From Dehalococcoidia bacterium (GTDB lineage: Bacteria; Chloroflexota; Dehalococcoidia; Lucifugimonadales; Lucifugimonadaceae): DNA of 33,919 nt. Shown here in pieces: positions 16,420-29,060 of the stretch. The notes below the pieces were generated by a model that was not told the origin of the DNA, made no database searches, and worked only from the letters and a program-made list of their open reading frames with translations. The stretch spans positions 1-33,919 of the forward strand of contig PBVQ01000025.1 in the NCBI GenBank assembly GCA_002728715.1, given 5' to 3'. How positions within the stretch are numbered: the stretch's first letter is position 1; each line of letters begins with the position of its first letter. A program made the translations under genes and the position numbers.

Positions 16420-17151
16420 TCATATAACCCAATTCGGTAAAGAATCTAAACTGAAAAGTTTCTTAATATTCTTTTTATTTATAACATTCTTAGACAAACC
16501 TGAATATATTATCGAACCAGAAGATAACATAACACATTCAGATATGTTATACCTCACGAAATCTATATCATGAGACGTAATAATTATATTTGTATCGAAT
16601 TCCTTAATAGTGTTTAATATTTGAGTCACTAATAATTTATTGGATAAATCTAAATTTGAGGTAGGTTCATCAAGTAGTAAATATTTAGGCTCTTGAACTA
16701 AAGCTCTGGCGAATCTCACTTTTTGCCTTTCGCCAGATGATAAATCATCTGTCCTATTTTTCCTAATCGATTCCAAATTTAGTAATTCAATTGTCTGATT
16801 AATGATTTTTCTGTCATTTTTACTTTGAAATCCCCAAAAAGACAAGTATGGATATCTACCCATTTCAATTATTTCCTCAACAGAAAATCCATAAGTTGGC
16901 TCATATTCTTGAGAGACAATTGCAAACATTTTCGCAAGTTGCTGAGGAGAAAAATTCAAAATATTACTATTATCTATGAAAATCTCTCCTCTGTTGCTTT
17001 TTAATAAACCCGAGATAATTTTTAATAGTGTTGTCTTACCCGACCCATTAGGACCTAAGATTCCAATTGAATCTGATGATAAATTTATTGAAATATCATC
17101 TATTATCAATTTTTCTCTATATCTAAAACTTATATTTTTAACACTAATCAT
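16420..17151 (-). CDS. btuD: Vitamin B12 importer, ATP-binding protein BtuD
   Basis: Cytoplasmic ATPase of a type II (FecCDE/BtuCDF) ABC importer. Walker A GPNGSGKTT is at 33-41, the Q-loop FAIVSQEYEP near 77-86, the variant signature LSSGERQ at 137-143, Walker B YLLLDEPT at 157-164, and the switch histidine is in ITSHDIDFV. EEIIEMGRYPYLS is the family's characteristic segment. It starts 11 bases after the binding-protein stop with no separate strong ribosome site, so it is the third gene of the riboswitch-led operon. By sequence alone siderophore or heme import would be equally possible; the cobalamin riboswitch upstream of the operon decides for B12. Confidence 0.88.
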   Translation of the reverse strand: MISVKNISFRYREKLIIDDISINLSSDSIGILGPNGSGKTTLLKIISGLLKSNRGEIFIDNSNILNFSPQQLAKMFAIVSQEYEPTYGFSVEEIIEMGRYPYLSFWGFQSKNDRKIINQTIELLNLESIRKNRTDDLSSGERQKVRFARALVQEPKYLLLDEPTSNLDLSNKLLVTQILNTIKEFDTNIIITSHDIDFVRYNISECVMLSSGSIIYSGLSKNVINKKNIKKLFSLDSLPNWVI

Positions 17152-17162
17152 TTATCTATGAA

Positions 17163-18248
17163 TTAGAAGTCCCCGAAATCTTCAAAGTTTCCTTCACTGT
17201 GTATAATTTTTGCAAGTTCCTGTGAACCTTTTATGTTCCAATAGGAAAGAGTTGTCCACCAATTTGAATTCACAAGATATACTTCTGAATTATTAATTGC
17301 AGTAATTGAATTTAATGAAGCATCCCCTATCAGTTGCTGGTAAAAATCTTCTCCTCCCCATTCTGGTGATTGAGTTATAACAATAATGTCAGGATTGATA
17401 GACATCAATTGTTCTTTATCTATCGTTGTATTTGATTCAATTCCAACTTTGGATGCAGCATTTATACCTCCACCTAAAGTAATAACAGAATCTTCTGTAG
17501 AACCAATGCCTGCAGTCCAATATGCATCCCACCAAGATAGCGCTAAGACAGTTTTAGTTGGGTTTTCACCTTGATTGGATAGAGAAGTCAATACATTTAT
17601 TTTATTTTCTATATCCTCCGCAAGAATTTCTGCATTATCAAGATTCCCAGTTGCATAAGCCATTAGCCAAATATCATTATATCTACCCTCAATAGAATTA
17701 CTTAATTGAGTTTGAATAACTATAATCCCGAAATCTTCTAAAGCATCTATAAGGTCTACTGAAGCATAAGGGTCAGCAAAAACTATATCAGGGTTCAAAT
17801 CAATAATATTTTCAGGGTCGCTAGTAATTATTGGCAATCCTTGAGCCTTTGAATATATATTACTATTGGGATCTTGAGCAAAACTTGTTGTAGCAACAAT
17901 TTGGCTTTTATCAGTTATTCCAAATAGTACCTCGTCGTGACCCAAAGAAATCGTAGCTACTTTATTAGGTTTTTCCTCAATATAGATATATTTACCATTG
18001 ATTTCTAAAACCCTTGGCCATGAAATGTTTTTTGGATCCGATATATAACTTATTTTCGACAATTCATCTTCAAAGTTATTTACTGTAATCGCTGTACTAG
18101 CAGGCAAAGCTGGCATAGCTTTGCTTGGAGGTTCAGCAGGGAGCGGCGTAGAGGGTAATTTAGTAATTTGACTTTTATTATTCTGATTTTCTCCACCGCA
18201 GGCAAAAAGAACAATTACAGTAGTTAATAATAAAAATTTAATTTTCAT
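17163..18248 (-). CDS. btuF: Vitamin B12-binding lipoprotein BtuF
   Basis: Substrate-binding protein of the importer, exported and lipid-anchored: signal peptide with lipobox LFAC and acceptor C17, then a Pro/Ala-rich linker to about residue 55. The mature part has the two-lobe type III fold typical of B12/siderophore binders, with KVATISLGHDEVLFGI, the lobe-spanning helix region and NPDIIVITQSPEW. At 361 residues it is longer than E. coli BtuF (about 266), partly through the linker. Its ATG overlaps the permease stop by 4 bases (ATGA), with AAGGAGGAA upstream at a rather long spacing. Assignment to B12 rather than iron rests on the riboswitch. Confidence 0.88.
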   Translation of the reverse strand: MKIKFLLLTTVIVLFACGGENQNNKSQITKLPSTPLPAEPPSKAMPALPASTAITVNNFEDELSKISYISDPKNISWPRVLEINGKYIYIEEKPNKVATISLGHDEVLFGITDKSQIVATTSFAQDPNSNIYSKAQGLPIITSDPENIIDLNPDIVFADPYASVDLIDALEDFGIIVIQTQLSNSIEGRYNDIWLMAYATGNLDNAEILAEDIENKINVLTSLSNQGENPTKTVLALSWWDAYWTAGIGSTEDSVITLGGGINAASKVGIESNTTIDKEQLMSINPDIIVITQSPEWGGEDFYQQLIGDASLNSITAINNSEVYLVNSNWWTTLSYWNIKGSQELAKIIHSEGNFEDFGDF

Positions 18249-19291
18249 GATATATAATTCCTCCTTAAGAAATTATTTTTAATTAGTAAAAACAAAAAAA
18301 ATGGGCCTCCAATAAGGCTCATTATTACTCCGACTCTAAGTTCAGATGATGTAAAAAAAATTCTAGTAATAAAATCCATTGATAAAACAAAAAAACCACC
18401 TGCTAAAGCAGATATAGGCAAAAGCAACCTGTTATCATGACCTATTATAAGTCTAATCAGATGAGGGACTACAAGCCCAACAAAAGCTAAAATTCCACTA
18501 ACAGAAACAGCTGCTGATGTAGCTAGCGTAGCAAAAAATAATGATGATAGTACAACTCTGTTTTTTTGAACACCAACAGACGAAGCATATTCATCTCCAA
18601 TCATTATTAAATTTATTTCCTTTGATCTGTATATGAGAAAAATCAACGATACAATAATTAAAGGGATAGAAATATTTATATGCTCCCATCTAGTCGATTC
18701 AAAACCACCTATTAACCAATAAAATATTGCTCTCATTTGAAAAGGACTATCACTTAAGTAAACTGATAATGTAATTAAGGAATTCAAGAATGCTCCAATT
18801 GCTATACCAGATAAAAGTAATATCGAATTAGATTTATGAGACATAAAAATATATATAGTAAATACCAAAAACGCAGCAAACAACCCACCTAATAAAGAAA
18901 ATATTGGGATAATCAATATACTAGTTGTATGTATTGCAAGCGATATAGGAATAACAGCTCCCAAAGCGGCTCCAGCAGAAACACCCAAAATAGAAGGATC
19001 TGCAAGCGGATTTCTAAATAATCCTTGAAGTACTACCCCAGAAATTGACAAGGCTAAGCCTACGAAAAAAGATAGTATTATCCTTGGAAGTCTTATATCC
19101 CATACCACTGAATCATTCACTAAATTACCTGAATTATTTTGAAAAAGTATCATTAGGACTTCAGAAATAGAAATATTAATATGACCGGAAGATAAAGAAA
19201 TAAAAGAAACTACAAAAGAAAGAAGAATAAATAAAATTGAAAAAAATAATATTGTTTGATATTTCTGATTTTTAATTATTATATTTCTCAT
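18245..19291 (-). CDS. btuC: Vitamin B12 importer, permease BtuC
   Basis: FecCD/BtuC-family permease of 348 residues with about ten hydrophobic helices, forming the homodimeric membrane channel. Family signatures seen are DIRLPRIILSFFVGLALSIS, GLFRNPLADPSILGVSAGAALGA (read in two parts), GEYASSVGV-like GDEYASSVGV and GLVVPHLIRLIIGHDNR. The ATG at 19291 has AAGG 9 bases upstream; that sequence can pair with CCTTA a few bases before it. It is the first gene of the btuC-btuF-btuD operon, about 85 bases after the cobalamin riboswitch, which therefore likely controls it. Confidence 0.9.
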   Translation of the reverse strand: MRNIIIKNQKYQTILFFSILFILLSFVVSFISLSSGHINISISEVLMILFQNNSGNLVNDSVVWDIRLPRIILSFFVGLALSISGVVLQGLFRNPLADPSILGVSAGAALGAVIPISLAIHTTSILIIPIFSLLGGLFAAFLVFTIYIFMSHKSNSILLLSGIAIGAFLNSLITLSVYLSDSPFQMRAIFYWLIGGFESTRWEHINISIPLIIVSLIFLIYRSKEINLIMIGDEYASSVGVQKNRVVLSSLFFATLATSAAVSVSGILAFVGLVVPHLIRLIIGHDNRLLLPISALAGGFFVLSMDFITRIFFTSSELRVGVIMSLIGGPFFLFLLIKNNFLRRNYIS

Positions 19292-23002: not shown

Positions 23003-24154
23003 ATGAAAATAACTGATATTAAACCTTTCCCTGTCTGGGTAGGAACTCGAAACCAAATGCTCGTTAAGGTAGAAACAGATGAAGGAATTTACGGATGGGG
23101 TGAATCAGGTTTATCTAGTAGAGAGCTTGGTGTAAAAGGAATAGTTGAACATTACAGAGAATTTCTTATTGGAAAAGATCCTATGAAAAGAGGTGCTTTG
23201 TGGCAAGAGATGTATAGGAGTCAGTATTTTGAAGGTGGTAGAACATTAACTGGTGCTATATCGGCAATAGATATGGCTTTATATGACATAGCAGGAAAAA
23301 AATTAAGAGTACCTGTTTACGAATTACTCGGAGGAAAGCATAGAAATTGGGTGCCAACTTTTGCAACTGGCGGAGGCTCTTCACCTGAAGAAATGGTACA
23401 TGTTGCAAAAAAAATAATTTCAGAAGGATTTAATTGCTTTAGGATTCACAGAGGATTTGACGAAGAAAAAGAAAATATTTATGAACCAAGAGAGCATATA
23501 GCTCAAGTCGCTGAAGGCCTTATAAAAGTCAGAGAAGCTGTAGGGAATCTTCCTACTATAGGAACAGATATTCACCATAGACTTAATGTTGCAGAGGCAG
23601 CGTCATTTTGTCAGATGATGCCAGCCCATACACTTGATTTTCTTGAAGAACCAATAAGAGATGAGACACCTGAAGCATATGAAGTTCTAAGAAAAATGAC
23701 TAATATCCCATTTGCAATAGGAGAAGAATTTGCTTCAAAATGGCAATTTGTCCCATATATTGAAAGAGGAATAACAAATTATGTAAGAATTGATGTATGT
23801 AATGTTGGTGGAATAACTGAATCAATGAAAGTTGCAGGTTGGGCTGAAGCTCATTATATAGATCTTATGCCTCATAATCCACTTGGTCCAATATGTGTTG
23901 CTGCTACAGCTCATGTAGCAATGGCAACACCTAATTTTTCATGGCTTGAAATAAGAGAATCTTCTGGAGAAGATAATGGATTTTATTCAAAAGAAGTATT
24001 CCCTGTTCAAGCTGAAATTGTCCCAGGAAAAGTAATACCACTTGATAAACCTGGGCTAGGTGTAGAGGTAGATGAATCTTCATTAACTGAGCCCTTCAGG
24101 CACGCAGAAATGCCTCATCTAACCAGAAGAGACGGATCACATACAAACTGGTAA
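23003..24154 (+). CDS. Enolase-superfamily acid-sugar dehydratase, paralog 1
   Basis: Mandelate racemase / D-galactonate dehydratase-like enzyme (383 residues) expected to dehydrate an aldonic acid to a 2-keto-3-deoxy acid. The N-terminal capping domain spans about 1-115, then the barrel. Metal and catalytic residues line up with DgoD: D189 and H191 (GTDIHHR), E215/E216 (LEEP), E241/E242 (IGEEFASKW) and H291 (MPHNPLGPI). The ribosome site is weak (GAAAG). It shares about 105 of its first 120 residues with the next gene, but residues about 123-185, before the first metal ligand, differ strongly (here FRIHRGFDEEKEN). It is first in a three-gene operon diverging from the RraA-like gene. Substrate unproven. 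Confidence 0.9.
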   Translation: MKITDIKPFPVWVGTRNQMLVKVETDEGIYGWGESGLSSRELGVKGIVEHYREFLIGKDPMKRGALWQEMYRSQYFEGGRTLTGAISAIDMALYDIAGKKLRVPVYELLGGKHRNWVPTFATGGGSSPEEMVHVAKKIISEGFNCFRIHRGFDEEKENIYEPREHIAQVAEGLIKVREAVGNLPTIGTDIHHRLNVAEAASFCQMMPAHTLDFLEEPIRDETPEAYEVLRKMTNIPFAIGEEFASKWQFVPYIERGITNYVRIDVCNVGGITESMKVAGWAEAHYIDLMPHNPLGPICVAATAHVAMATPNFSWLEIRESSGEDNGFYSKEVFPVQAEIVPGKVIPLDKPGLGVEVDESSLTEPFRHAEMPHLTRRDGSHTNW

Positions 24155-24181
24155 ATAAAAATAAATTTAGGAGATAATATA

Positions 24182-25342
24182 ATGAAAATAACAGAAGTAA
24201 AGCCCTTTGCAGTATGGGTCGGTAGAAGGAATCAAATGCTGGTAAAAATAGAAACAGATGAAGGCATATACGGCTGGGGTGAATCTGGTTTTTCTGGTAG
24301 GGAACTTGGAGTAAAAGGAATAATAGAACACTATAGAGAATTTCTGATAGGAAAAGATCCTATGAGCAGAGGAGCACTTTGGCAAGAAATGTATAGAAGC
24401 CAATACTTTGAGGGTGGAAGAACTTTAACTGCTGCAATCTCTGCAATAGATATAGCTCTATATGATATTGTTGGAAAAAAATTAGGTGTACCTGTTTACG
24501 AATTGCTTGGAGGAAAGCATAGAAATAAGGTACCAGTGTTTGCAACAACAGCAGGTCCTTATGGGCAAGATATGATCGATCAAGCAAAAGAATTTATGGA
24601 AATGGGAATTAATGCATTTAGGCTCTCTTATGACAACATGGACATACAAAGTGGAGGGTTATTTGAACCAAGGGTATCAATTGCCAATTCAGCTGAATGG
24701 TTTATAGAAGCAAGAAAACAGCTTGGAAATCAAGCAATAATTGGTGTTGATTATCATCATAGACTAAATGTTGCGGAAACGGCATCTTTTTGTCAAATGA
24801 TGCCATCACACACCTTAGATTTTATTGAAGAACCCATCAGAGATGAAACCCCTGAGGCATACGAAGTTTTACGCACGCTTACAGATGTTCCATTTGCAAT
24901 CGGAGAAGAATTTGCATCAAAATGGCAGTTTTTACCATACATAGAAAGAGGTATAACAAATTACGCAAGAGTTGATATATGTAATGTTGGAGGTTTTACA
25001 GAATCTATGAAGGTTGCAGGCTGGGCTGAAGCTCACTATATTGACCTAATGCCTCATAATCCACTTGGTCCTATTTGTACTGCTGCTTCCGTTCATTTAG
25101 GGGCTGCAGTACCAAACTTTGCATGGCTAGAAGTTGCTATGGCAAGAGCTTCAAATAATTATGGCGAGGGTCCAAATTTTGAGGTATACCCTGAACAAGT
25201 ATTGTTGGAAGGCAACGGGTATTCACTCCCAGAAAAACCTGGTTTAGGCGTAGAAGTGAACGAGGATAAATTATCCGAACCATTCAAATTTTGGGAGGCT
25301 CCACATCCTCACAAAGAAGATGGTTCTCATACTAACTGGTAA
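24182..25342 (+). CDS. Enolase-superfamily acid-sugar dehydratase, paralog 2
   Basis: Second tandem copy (386 residues), clearly a duplicate of the preceding gene. Catalytic and metal residues are all kept: D190 and H192 (GVDYHHR), the IEEP pair, IGEEFASKW, and H292 (MPHNPLGPI). The segment at about 123-185 is different from paralog 1 (here FRLSYDNMDIQSGG), as is the extreme C-terminal loop after WLEVA, so it probably acts on a related but different acid sugar or epimer. AGGAGA precedes the ATG, 27 bases after the first paralog. At the DNA level the two copies differ at many synonymous sites, which argues for an old duplication. Confidence 0.9.
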   Translation: MKITEVKPFAVWVGRRNQMLVKIETDEGIYGWGESGFSGRELGVKGIIEHYREFLIGKDPMSRGALWQEMYRSQYFEGGRTLTAAISAIDIALYDIVGKKLGVPVYELLGGKHRNKVPVFATTAGPYGQDMIDQAKEFMEMGINAFRLSYDNMDIQSGGLFEPRVSIANSAEWFIEARKQLGNQAIIGVDYHHRLNVAETASFCQMMPSHTLDFIEEPIRDETPEAYEVLRTLTDVPFAIGEEFASKWQFLPYIERGITNYARVDICNVGGFTESMKVAGWAEAHYIDLMPHNPLGPICTAASVHLGAAVPNFAWLEVAMARASNNYGEGPNFEVYPEQVLLEGNGYSLPEKPGLGVEVNEDKLSEPFKFWEAPHPHKEDGSHTNW

Positions 25343-26146: not shown

Positions 26147-27133
26147 TTATTCAGGTAATTGTGGAATAGGCTTTCCTGTAAGATAATTTCCAATTATAGA
26201 GCCTAGCTCTGAGGGAGCGTTCGTTCTTTTTGATTCAAATATAGACTGTGAACCTGTTATTACATTTTTGTCATTAGCGCACAAATAATCTATAGAATTA
26301 ATAGAATCTGTTGTATAAAAATCTAACCTAAAAATTGTTGTACATCCATCATGATCACTTATTGGAATATCTAAATTTAATATAGAAAGAAGTTTTCCTG
26401 TATCTTCAATACTAATCTGATCTATTTCATCAAACTTAAAGTTAACAAAATTTCGAGTAAGTAAAACTATTCTTTGGGTTTTTTCAAGATTAAGTTCTTG
26501 ATATAAATTAACTGTTGGCCCATCTAAAACTTCAATTTCATCGCATCTAAAAATTACAGTATCGTCAATATCGACATGGTATTCCCATGTTTTATCGCCA
26601 TCAGACAAAAAATACTTATATCCTGGATATTCTCCAAGAGAGTCTTCGTAATAAACTCCAGGCGAAGGACAACCATATGATGAATCAGACCATTTATATG
26701 GGTAAAATTCTTCTAAATAAAGTTTACTTGGGTCAATATTTTTTTCATAAATAAGTCTAGCCATTTCCTGAACATAAGAGCTTGGAGGAGAATTTCTTAA
26801 TGCGTCGTCTGGAACAGGGAGAACAGTAGGAATAATTGCAGTAGGTTTTGGTTCTATAGTTGGAGATAATTCAACATTAGGTTGTTTAGGAAAAGGAGGA
26901 ACAAATTTTTCTCCATCTGAAACTGTAGGAATGGGGGTTGTAGTAGGGGTCACTTGGTTAATTTTCGGCACAGAAGTAGGAGTCACTGTATTAATGGCTA
27001 ATGTAGGTTTTAAAACTATATTCTGAGTGGAAATCCTTGGTTTACTTTGAACACAAGAAATAGAAAAAAAGAGAATCATAGATAAAAAAATCAATGATAA
27101 ATGGCTTAATATTACTCTGTTGGAAAGAAACAT
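26147..27133 (-). CDS. Lipoprotein with Thr/Pro-rich linker, unknown function
   Basis: Exported, probably lipid-anchored protein (328 residues): signal peptide with lipobox FSISC and acceptor C27, then a low-complexity linker to about residue 110 rich in TP/PT steps (TPTTTPIPT), then a globular domain. That domain contains the recurring W-x-D-x-S-x-G-C-P-x-P-G-x-x-Y pattern (W148, C155, P156, P158, G159) followed by W-E-Y-H (183-186) and C197. I have met this pattern in secreted bacterial proteins of unknown function. Two further cysteines (DHDGCTT, DYLCAND) could form a second disulfide. It starts one base after the histidine kinase stop, so it belongs to the regulatory operon and may be its sensor partner or an accessory. 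Confidence 0.78.
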   Translation of the reverse strand: MFLSNRVILSHLSLIFLSMILFFSISCVQSKPRISTQNIVLKPTLAINTVTPTSVPKINQVTPTTTPIPTVSDGEKFVPPFPKQPNVELSPTIEPKPTAIIPTVLPVPDDALRNSPPSSYVQEMARLIYEKNIDPSKLYLEEFYPYKWSDSSYGCPSPGVYYEDSLGEYPGYKYFLSDGDKTWEYHVDIDDTVIFRCDEIEVLDGPTVNLYQELNLEKTQRIVLLTRNFVNFKFDEIDQISIEDTGKLLSILNLDIPISDHDGCTTIFRLDFYTTDSINSIDYLCANDKNVITGSQSIFESKRTNAPSELGSIIGNYLTGKPIPQLPE

Positions 27134-27134
27134 A

Positions 27135-28094
27135 TTACTTAGATCTGTTATCTAAAGGAAGCCTTAATATAAAAGTTGTACCTTTATCCTCGTTAGTTTT
27201 AGAAAAATTTGAATTAACATCCAAAGTCCCTCCACAAAAAGTAGTCAATGAGTCTGCTATAAATAACCCAATACCAGAACTTTGCTTTTCACTTCTTGCT
27301 GCTAACTCTGGAGTCCAACCTCTATTAAATATATGAGGCAAATGTGATTTTTCTATTCCTTGTCCGTCATCCCATACTTTCACATAATAATAATTTTCAT
27401 CTTTAATTAGTGAAATTTCAATTTGTTTATTTGCAAATTTAGTTGCATTGTCAACTATGTTAGTAACTATGTGATCCAGTGCAGATGCATCTCCAAAAAC
27501 TATTCCAAAATCACTCGGATCTGCCCACCATACGAGATCCACTCCCTTTTCCTTCCCAACATAAAAATACCTATCAGTTATATTTCTAATTACAGAAGCT
27601 GGCTCTACCGGCTCAGATGAAGGTTTAGCATTAGGATTCTCAAGATCTACTAAAACTCTTACGTTTTCAATCATTAATCTAAAATTTGGTGATTGTTGTT
27701 CAATTTCATCAATTAATTCCGTAACCATTCTCGGAACTTTACTTTCTGTCTCTTTGATGACAGCTCTAACTTCTCTTTCTTTACCTAGAATTCTTCTGAG
27801 AGGCCTACCCATGTCATGGGCAAAAGTATCAAAATAATCTTGAGTGACCCTACTCCAGCTTTTTATATTTTTGTTGTCTTCAATTTTTTTATCGTAAAAA
27901 TAATTAATGATATATAGAAGTATGCAACTTACAATAAATATAGAACCTCCTAGATAGGCAATAGGCTCAATCCACCATAAAGAATTAGGAGATAAATCAT
28001 CTCCTATAATAGGAGATGAAATTATCATAATTACTCCTATGATAAGGAAGATAATAATACTTTTTTTTATTAATGCTAAAATATCTATTTTCAT
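27135..28094 (-). CDS. Membrane histidine kinase
   Basis: A 319-residue sensor kinase. Two membrane helices (about 10-29 and 44-66) enclose only about 15 external residues, so there is no periplasmic sensor domain. The dimerisation helix holds the phospho-acceptor H93 in FAHDMGRPL, a slightly unusual H-box (commonly SHELRTPL). The catalytic domain has an N-box DHIVTNIVDNATKFA, G1 VWDDGQGIEKSHLPHIF and G2 SSGIGLFIADSL. It follows the response regulator by 2 bases and precedes the lipoprotein by 1 base. Sensing could occur within the membrane or through the lipoprotein; both are inference. Confidence 0.9.
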   Translation of the reverse strand: MKIDILALIKKSIIIFLIIGVIMIISSPIIGDDLSPNSLWWIEPIAYLGGSIFIVSCILLYIINYFYDKKIEDNKNIKSWSRVTQDYFDTFAHDMGRPLRRILGKEREVRAVIKETESKVPRMVTELIDEIEQQSPNFRLMIENVRVLVDLENPNAKPSSEPVEPASVIRNITDRYFYVGKEKGVDLVWWADPSDFGIVFGDASALDHIVTNIVDNATKFANKQIEISLIKDENYYYVKVWDDGQGIEKSHLPHIFNRGWTPELAARSEKQSSGIGLFIADSLTTFCGGTLDVNSNFSKTNEDKGTTFILRLPLDNRSK

Positions 28095-28096
28095 TA

Positions 28097-28891
28097 TTAT
28101 TCTGGATGTATTAACCTATATCCCCTATTTCTAACATTAATTATTAATTCATTAGCACTAAATTCTCTTCCTATAGATTTTCCTAAGGAAATCTTAAGTT
28201 CTCTTATTCTTACTCTCAAAGATGCTCTTGAATCTTCTCCAAATGAAAACCTTTCAAGTTTAGAAAATGGAACTAGTTCTCCTTCACTTCTATATAGTGC
28301 TGCAGCTAGTTCTTTTAATATTTCTAATTTCATTCCCTGAACATCTTTGACAATTTCTTTTTTACCATCAACAATTGCATAAACAGCAGAGTTATCAGAA
28401 TCTATTTCGAAAAGATCTCCTATCATAACTTTCTCAGGGGCACTACCAATTAGCCTGCGCAAACGAAGAACAACTTCTTCTGGACTAGCCAATTTATCTA
28501 TGAAATCCACATTAGCATCAACGCTCAAGGTTGCTGTTACAGCAGTGTCTCTATATGGTCCCTGCGCATATTGAGTGAACATCAAAACAGGTATTTTGTT
28601 ATTTCTATCAACTATTTTTTTTAATATTGATAAGCCCTTAAATCTATCAGTATCATACTCTCCAAACCTAACATCTAGAAGTATAGCGTCAGGATGGTAC
28701 TCCTCTAATGCAAAAAGAGTTTGAATTTCATATTCATCACCTGTACCCATTGTACCTTTAGGCTTTACAACAATAGTCTTAAAACCATCTATCTCTAGCC
28801 TTCTCAAAACTGATCTCATTAAGTCTGACATATGTTCATCATCAACAACGAGTATTTTTTGATTATTATTTTTTTCGCTTAAATTATTCAT
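28097..28891 (-). CDS. Response regulator with OmpR/PhoB-type DNA-binding domain
   Basis: Transcription regulator of 264 residues paired with the kinase downstream. Receiver domain about 11-150: acidic pocket D17/D18 (LVVDDEH), phospho-acceptor D73 (ILLDVRF), switch T106 (MFTQYA) and K133 (DFIDKLAS). It carries extra residues after strand 2 (about 43-56, with GTMGTGDEYE) and around 76-85, making the receiver larger than the usual 120. The C-terminal winged helix (about 190-264) ends ASLRVRIRELKISLG and IINVRNRGYRLI, typical trans_reg_C. It is first in the operon and diverges from dnaE; the dyad AGTATAAAATACT at 28944-28956 could be a binding site. Targets unknown. Confidence 0.9.
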   Translation of the reverse strand: MNNLSEKNNNQKILVVDDEHMSDLMRSVLRRLEIDGFKTIVVKPKGTMGTGDEYEIQTLFALEEYHPDAILLDVRFGEYDTDRFKGLSILKKIVDRNNKIPVLMFTQYAQGPYRDTAVTATLSVDANVDFIDKLASPEEVVLRLRRLIGSAPEKVMIGDLFEIDSDNSAVYAIVDGKKEIVKDVQGMKLEILKELAAALYRSEGELVPFSKLERFSFGEDSRASLRVRIRELKISLGKSIGREFSANELIINVRNRGYRLIHPE

Positions 28892-28943
28892 ATTAACTAC
28901 TATTATATAATTTTATTAAAAACTAGGTGGTATATAGAAAAAA

Positions 28944-28956
28944 AGTATAAAATACT
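28944..28956. promoter_or_regulatory. Short dyad between response regulator and dnaE
   Basis: AGTAT-AAA-ATACT is a 5+5 inverted repeat with a 3-base centre in the 169-base divergent gap, 53 bases upstream of the response regulator start. It could be an operator or simply chance in AT-rich DNA. Perfect TATAAT hexamers at 28993-28998 and 29009-29014 may serve dnaE. Confidence 0.3.
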
Positions 28957-29060
28957 CCAAATTGTATTTTTTTAATCAAAAAGAGCAATTTTTATAATAA
29001 AAATAAAATATAATTTCATTAATCATTATTTTACCTAAACAAATATATAAAAAAATAGAC

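Follow-up and report, generated by a model that had tools for sequence, protein, structure and literature searches.

A regulator-kinase-lipoprotein operon of SAR202-type Chloroflexota with repeated replacement of the lipoprotein outer domain

Results

Three closely packed genes on the minus strand

The window, by which we mean the whole 33,919-nucleotide stretch of DNA analysed, is contig 21 of the 1.35-Mb genome of a SAR202-type Chloroflexota bacterium; among named genomes, those of Chloroflexi metagenomes and of the cultured SAR202 bacterium Candidatus Lucifugimonas marina are close to it. Positions 26147-28891 of its minus strand, on which all protein features described below also lie, hold ORFs for a response regulator (28097..28891, 264 aa), a histidine kinase (27135..28094, 319 aa) and, as third gene of the operon, a lipoprotein (26147..27133, 328 aa). 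The intergenic gaps are of 2 and 1 bases, just as an earlier note on this DNA had reported. The same gene order is present in four species of the window's genus, and hence the arrangement is not due to chance. An intergenic region (28892..29060), mostly A+T and with 88% mean column identity in the genus, separates the regulator gene from a divergent dnaE-like gene; we would expect the operon promoter here, and promoter-like sites occurred at a frequency not above that in shuffled sequence. A second copy of the regulator (G002:C3:30980-31216, locus L073, a fragment at a contig end) or of the regulator-kinase pair beside dnaE (G081:C61, locus L113) was observed in two other assemblies, and these copies possibly reflect strain mixture in metagenome assembly. 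Elsewhere in the window are genes for what looks like an ABC transporter of the iron/cobalamin type (an ATPase, a lipoprotein for binding and a permease; 16420-19291) and two tandem paralogous enolase-superfamily genes (23003-25342), the latter in agreement with the known expansion in SAR202 of catabolic paralogues such as the enolase superfamily.

ORF calls and Pfam matches divide the regulator into a receiver and a C-terminal domain. The receiver (Response_reg, 32.3 bits for a cut-off of 30.2; matched at E up to 0.01 in 17/17 homologues) has residues D17, D18, D73 and K133 invariant in the alignment, and its 131 residues span 109 Pfam model positions. The acid pair is 55 residues from the phospho-Asp and Asp73 is 13 from the conserved Gly, compared to 44 and 8, respectively, in CheY, which indicates two insertions and locates them near the extra loops (~43-56 and ~76-85) noticed earlier. 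The C-terminal domain weakly resembles an OmpR/PhoB winged helix, with a Trans_reg_C score of 17.6 bits, under the cut-off of 26.2, and a weak match in 5/17 homologues; a sigma-54 activation domain is absent by Pfam. Structure prediction for the regulator, with input poor in diverse sequences, was of low confidence (mean pLDDT 39), and PDB sequence searches with the regulator and lipoprotein profiles returned no useful match.

A kinase with two membrane segments and a short outer loop

Hydropathy analysis of the kinase reveals two hydrophobic, transmembrane segments (residues ~13-31 and ~45-63) joined by a loop of ~13 residues, DDLSPNSLWWIEP (residues 32-44; 27963..28001), in keeping with the ~15 residues outside the membrane proposed in the earlier note. 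Pfam detects only HATPase_c domains in the protein, with no match to PAS, HAMP or HisKA, and the kinase has no extracytoplasmic domain. The same holds for its relatives: 17 kinase homologues match HATPase_c families only, save for one weak DUF7269 match, with no PAS, HAMP or CACHE domain in any, and the outer loop is 12-21 residues long by hydropathy in 18/19 homologues, the other being a row with a long N-terminus that was mis-called. Kinases are classed as intramembrane-sensing when the linker between their helices is under 25 residues (PMC4388633). By this linker criterion, and given the absence of any other sensor domain in its sequence, the window kinase is of the intramembrane-sensing type.

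The H-box AHDMGRPL (H93; 27798..27821) pointed out earlier is present, and HD[MLI]xRP is kept among the aligned relatives. Since the H, N and G boxes are all kept in every one of these, the kinase is likely to be active. In the outer loop, the Glu-Pro pair E43-P44 is nearly invariant across the order, and most of the order keeps the longer pattern LW-x-[IV]-EP. At its outer-loop codons, the kinase gene contains an inverted repeat with two perfectly matching 10-bp arms (TCATCTCCTA-tta-TAGGAGATGA, 27997-28019), a terminator-like pattern that is probably there by chance.

The lipoprotein: anchor, linker and outer domain

The third protein has a signal peptide that ends in FSISC27, followed by the lipid-anchored segment Cys27 to Arg33 (CVQSKPR; 27035..27055), whose C-x5-R signature is common to the Ig-type third genes of the order, then by a Thr/Pro-rich linker delimited from sequence and alignment (26789..27034), and finally by an outer domain (residues 116-328; 26150..26788). 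The motif WSDSSYGCPSPG (26657..26692), running as W148-S-D-S-S-Y-G-C-P-S-P-G159, was located in the latter by sequence and alignment; a lipid-anchored protein with a Thr/Pro linker and a W-x-D-x-S-x-G-C-P-x-P-G motif, as first described, is therefore confirmed. Cysteines 155, 197, 264 and 285 of the outer domain are invariant in 21 homologues and suggest two extracellular disulfides. No Pfam family was found in the lipoprotein or in its 21 aligned homologues, and no NCBIfam family in the lipoprotein. The predicted structure of the outer domain (mean pLDDT 88.8, pTM 0.74) comprises two subdomains; Foldseek gave no match to it at E 0.001 or better. The known structure most similar to it, 4r7r, of a putative lipoprotein from Clostridium perfringens (Z 8.9, rmsd 3.5, 107 aligned residues), was set aside as a clue to function because it covers the C-terminal subdomain alone and reveals nothing sure about function.

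Relatives of the lipoprotein lie at the relA locus

We examined how far this trio extends in other genomes, as the earlier note had proposed. The exact trio is restricted to the window's genus (4/4 species), and it is a lipoprotein in the third slot, rather than this lipoprotein, that recurs order-wide, as detailed below. A search of 60 relatives with the window lipoprotein yielded matches in 39 genomes, of which just four, those of the window's genus, have the match adjacent to the kinase; in the 35 other family genomes with the regulator the homologous outer domain, where present, sits at a separate locus. A narrower lipoprotein alignment scanned over the genome collection gave 15 loci. Linkage of the same lipoprotein to the kinase beyond the genus is thus ruled out by the relatives' loci in the family, so that the outcome named earlier as one that would refute a module, a lipoprotein gene unlinked to the kinase in relatives, is what we found outside the genus and the opposite of what we found within it.

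The separate locus has a conserved gene set across the family (G000:C13:1-471 and C17:13-393; L050, L053-L072), with neighbours that we take to be an iron ABC transporter on one side and thiL, relA (spoT), rpsT and lexA on the other. The outer-domain protein occurs at this relA locus in almost all family genomes examined, including genera without the regulator-kinase pair, and its family has no Pfam counterpart. The window's genus also keeps a relA-locus copy, which has a transmembrane anchor and no lipobox. The outer domain of the window lipoprotein is nested in the relA-locus family (support 100/100), grouping with the proteins of the nearest genera, and a polytomy in the outer-domain tree leaves both the genus's own relA-locus copy and that of a close relative as its possible source. 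The anchor, on the other hand, is CVQSKPR (CVESKPR in one species), compared to CVESRPR and CVESRAR in the Ig-type proteins of the sister genus; in the relA tree, the window's genus is sister to an Ig-type genus, g12. On a profile of the six residues after the Cys, built from Ig-type third proteins, the window lipoprotein scored 13.6 bits, within the 11.5-17.0 of the Ig types, and each other lipoprotein 0.41 or less, a likeness that amounts to seven residues plus position.

One reading of these data is that in one genus a duplicate of the relA-locus gene came to lie next to the kinase gene by accident and is functionally unrelated to it, and the presence of the domain at the relA locus in genomes devoid of the regulator-kinase pair would fit this. 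We regard it as very improbable, given that the window copy has the anchor of Ig-type third genes in their exact slot, with a gap of a single base, whereas the relA-locus copy of the same genus is anchored by a transmembrane helix. The simplest history, judged from these sequences, is instead that the window lipoprotein is a chimera that kept its Ig-type anchor and in which a relA-locus-derived domain replaced the ancestral Ig outer domain. The swap must then have taken place inside the Thr/Pro linker.

The third slot across the order

The regulator was found in 94/250 genomes of the order, and in 39/76 of the window's family. Behind the kinase gene there is almost always a gene for a protein with a Thr/Pro linker, in most cases a lipoprotein that carries a bacterial Ig-like domain. 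For nearly all of the 94 regulator genomes we read on past the kinase gene, and 90 loci could be classified by their third ORF: 57 encode an Ig-type lipoprotein, 13 a transmembrane-anchored Ig protein, nine a type that we call PHVFVG, four the window type and one a TPR protein, with apparently no such gene in two and the remaining four cut by contig ends. Lipid-anchored third genes were seen in seven families. In the other genera of the window's family, the third gene encodes a lipoprotein that combines a Thr/Pro linker with an Ig-like Glucodextran_B domain, and the fourth a large secreted DUF5666-like protein. This fourth gene is present in 35/35 regulator genomes outside the window's genus (~5 kb or less from the regulator in 30 of them and on different contigs in the other five) and in 0/4 within it; one genome of another family has the identical four-gene set (L108). 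Ca. Lucifugimonas marina has the Ig version of the operon, and also an unlinked Ig paralogue (L120:3789-4862) that appears to be joined to a receiver-like domain, with a DUF5666-like gene after it.

A single metagenome-assembled genome, of a genus otherwise Ig, encodes ~19 TPR repeats on a C-x5-R anchor (L128:3305-5641). The PHVFVG type (L183-L191, L142), with a ~90-residue domain (PHVFVGxVTIxGxxAPDGTEVTVW) that has no Pfam match, again on a C-x5-R anchor, is confined to one genus, which also includes an Ig member. Swaps within a genus are thus seen between Ig and TPR (L127/L128) and between Ig and PHVFVG (L124/L183). In a regulator plus kinase tree, obtained by a quick method and with a weak PHVFVG node, all three outer domains that took the place of Ig branch from within the Ig types. 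Over at least three such changes of outer domain, the kinase loop pattern LW-x-[IV]-EP was largely kept. In 13 genomes of one genus (L133-L135, L167-L176) the third protein has a transmembrane helix, not a lipid anchor, and the Arg of the C-x5-R signature is lost; these keep the kinase and the Ig domain, with the loop Glu replaced by Gln in two. The loop Glu-Pro mostly persists also where the lipid anchor or the third gene is missing.

An arginine at position +6 of the lipidated cysteine

All third proteins with a lipobox Cys chosen blind to position +6 have Arg there (71/71, or 70/70 when the ORF was chosen blind as well), a count inflated by shared ancestry. The corresponding background is low: of 41 N-termini of other lipoproteins, encoded at loci in the same family, one has Arg at +6, as do 3/26 in a blind background from operon loci, one of the three being the TPR partner itself; three unlinked Ig paralogues lack a lipobox. 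The anchors comprise 61 distinct nine-residue sequences. Because positions +1 to +5 vary across seven families, the conservation argues for selection on the Arg. Lipidation and the Arg are nonetheless not essential everywhere, as the 13 genomes lacking both demonstrate.

The fixed Arg could instead help to process the lipoprotein or to place it in the membrane, if the lipoprotein were what the system produces, namely a surface protein in the same transcript because the regulator controls it, with no part in controlling the kinase. The operon does run on to the large secreted DUF5666-like protein in many genomes, so exported products are made, and Ig and TPR outer domains are generic surface modules. 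Yet an Arg at +6 is rare in the other lipoproteins of these loci, it stays with the kinase slot through three outer-domain changes, and the window's genus has lost the fourth gene and kept the lipoprotein slot; we consider this explanation unlikely, with a modest chance of being correct. There is a rather smaller chance that the lipoprotein, like SaeP/SaeQ, acts in feedback on the kinase or for its stability: it would dampen the kinase by favouring its phosphatase mode, or stabilise it, and leave signal sensing to the membrane helices. The SaeS/SaeP pair has this anatomy too, a short-loop kinase and a lipoprotein in one operon; SaePQ switch on the phosphatase activity of SaeS, which can be activated without them (PMC5083920), and an unchanging segment near the membrane together with an outer domain that can be dispensed with would fit as well. 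However, the operon encodes no SaeQ-like four-helix membrane protein, and the outer domain, having been exchanged repeatedly, seems to matter. Altogether, our analyses suggest a lipoprotein that acts as a plug-in sensor or regulator.

Discussion

On balance, we think it reasonably probable that the window holds one genus's version of an order-wide three-part operon, in which an intramembrane-type kinase is regulated by a lipoprotein on the outer face of a shared membrane and the outer domain of the lipoprotein is swappable. The external lipoprotein partner put forward in the earlier note gains from the order-wide occupation of the third slot by lipoproteins with the same membrane-proximal signature; the window's own lipoprotein family is a partner in one genus only. 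Electron microscopy of Ca. Lucifugimonas marina, a related SAR202 isolate, shows one membrane only (PMC10444878), and hence the lipoprotein would share the kinase's membrane.

The product of the third gene would then sit on the outer face of this membrane and regulate the kinase. Its constant part, adjacent to the membrane, comprises the signal peptide, the lipidated Cys and the +6 Arg, and its changeable part the Thr/Pro linker and the outer domain. The constant part may dock on the near-invariant outer loop of the kinase: we infer that the anchor-proximal segment touches the loop because neither of the two varies when the outer domain does. Docking, and with it the kinase/phosphatase balance, could be altered when the outer domain, which would serve as input or as tether, binds a ligand, contacts the wall or is crowded, and the regulator would in turn change transcription of its target genes, possibly of its own operon too. 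More tentatively, and with somewhat less than even confidence, we propose a plug-in receptor system in which a sensorless kinase reads interchangeable outer domains via a lipid-Cys-x5-Arg adaptor on the LW-x-[IV]-EP loop, such that the input would evolve by swapping the outer domain and not the kinase. The operon provides a natural domain-swap series, with a fixed Arg and a fixed kinase loop that point to specific residues to test; for SaeP, SaeQ and SaeS, the interacting parts are, according to a review, not known (PMC5083920). The lineage that has this signalling system is, moreover, abundant in the deep ocean and represented in culture by Ca. Lucifugimonas marina.

The earlier suggestion that the module was previously undescribed applies to the operon itself, on which our literature search found no papers in SAR202, and not to its kind, for which MtrAB-LpqB, SaePQRS and QseEGF are precedents. 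Intramembrane-sensing histidine kinases, such as BceS, LiaS, SaeS and GraS, similarly have two helices, a linker under 25 residues and no outer sensor domain, and need accessory partners (PMC4388633). Transporters, membrane proteins and SaeP have been described as their partners, whereas the SAR202 partner is a lipoprotein in which the anchor stays constant and the outer domain changes. SaePQRS of Staphylococcus aureus is alike in its intramembrane-type SaeS, with a 9-residue outer linker, and in having the lipoprotein SaeP in the operon (PMC4388633, PMC5083920). It differs in its gene order (P-Q-R-S), in the membrane protein SaeQ, with no four-helix protein of this type in the window operon or the related loci read, and in that SaeP has no described relation to the SAR202 lipoproteins; nor is outer-domain exchange described in these two papers. 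Actinobacterial MtrAB-LpqB shares the regulator-kinase-lipoprotein order, and LpqB binds the outer domain of MtrB and affects MtrA phosphorylation (PMC3353115). MtrB, however, has an extracellular domain and HAMP, and the window kinase neither, and Pfam and NCBIfam detected no LpqB-type domain in the window lipoprotein. In QseE-QseG-QseF of Enterobacteriaceae, a lipoprotein is likewise encoded with the kinase and the regulator, and QseG binds and activates the kinase QseE directly (PMC12691602). QseG is, in contrast, an outer-membrane lipoprotein that bridges two membranes and works through its C-terminal region, and the order there is kinase-lipoprotein-regulator, with a sigma-54-dependent regulator, compared to regulator-kinase-lipoprotein in the window. 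None of these three systems fits on defining features, and we therefore call the SAR202 operon a variant of the already known kinase-lipoprotein-regulator kind of operon rather than one of them.
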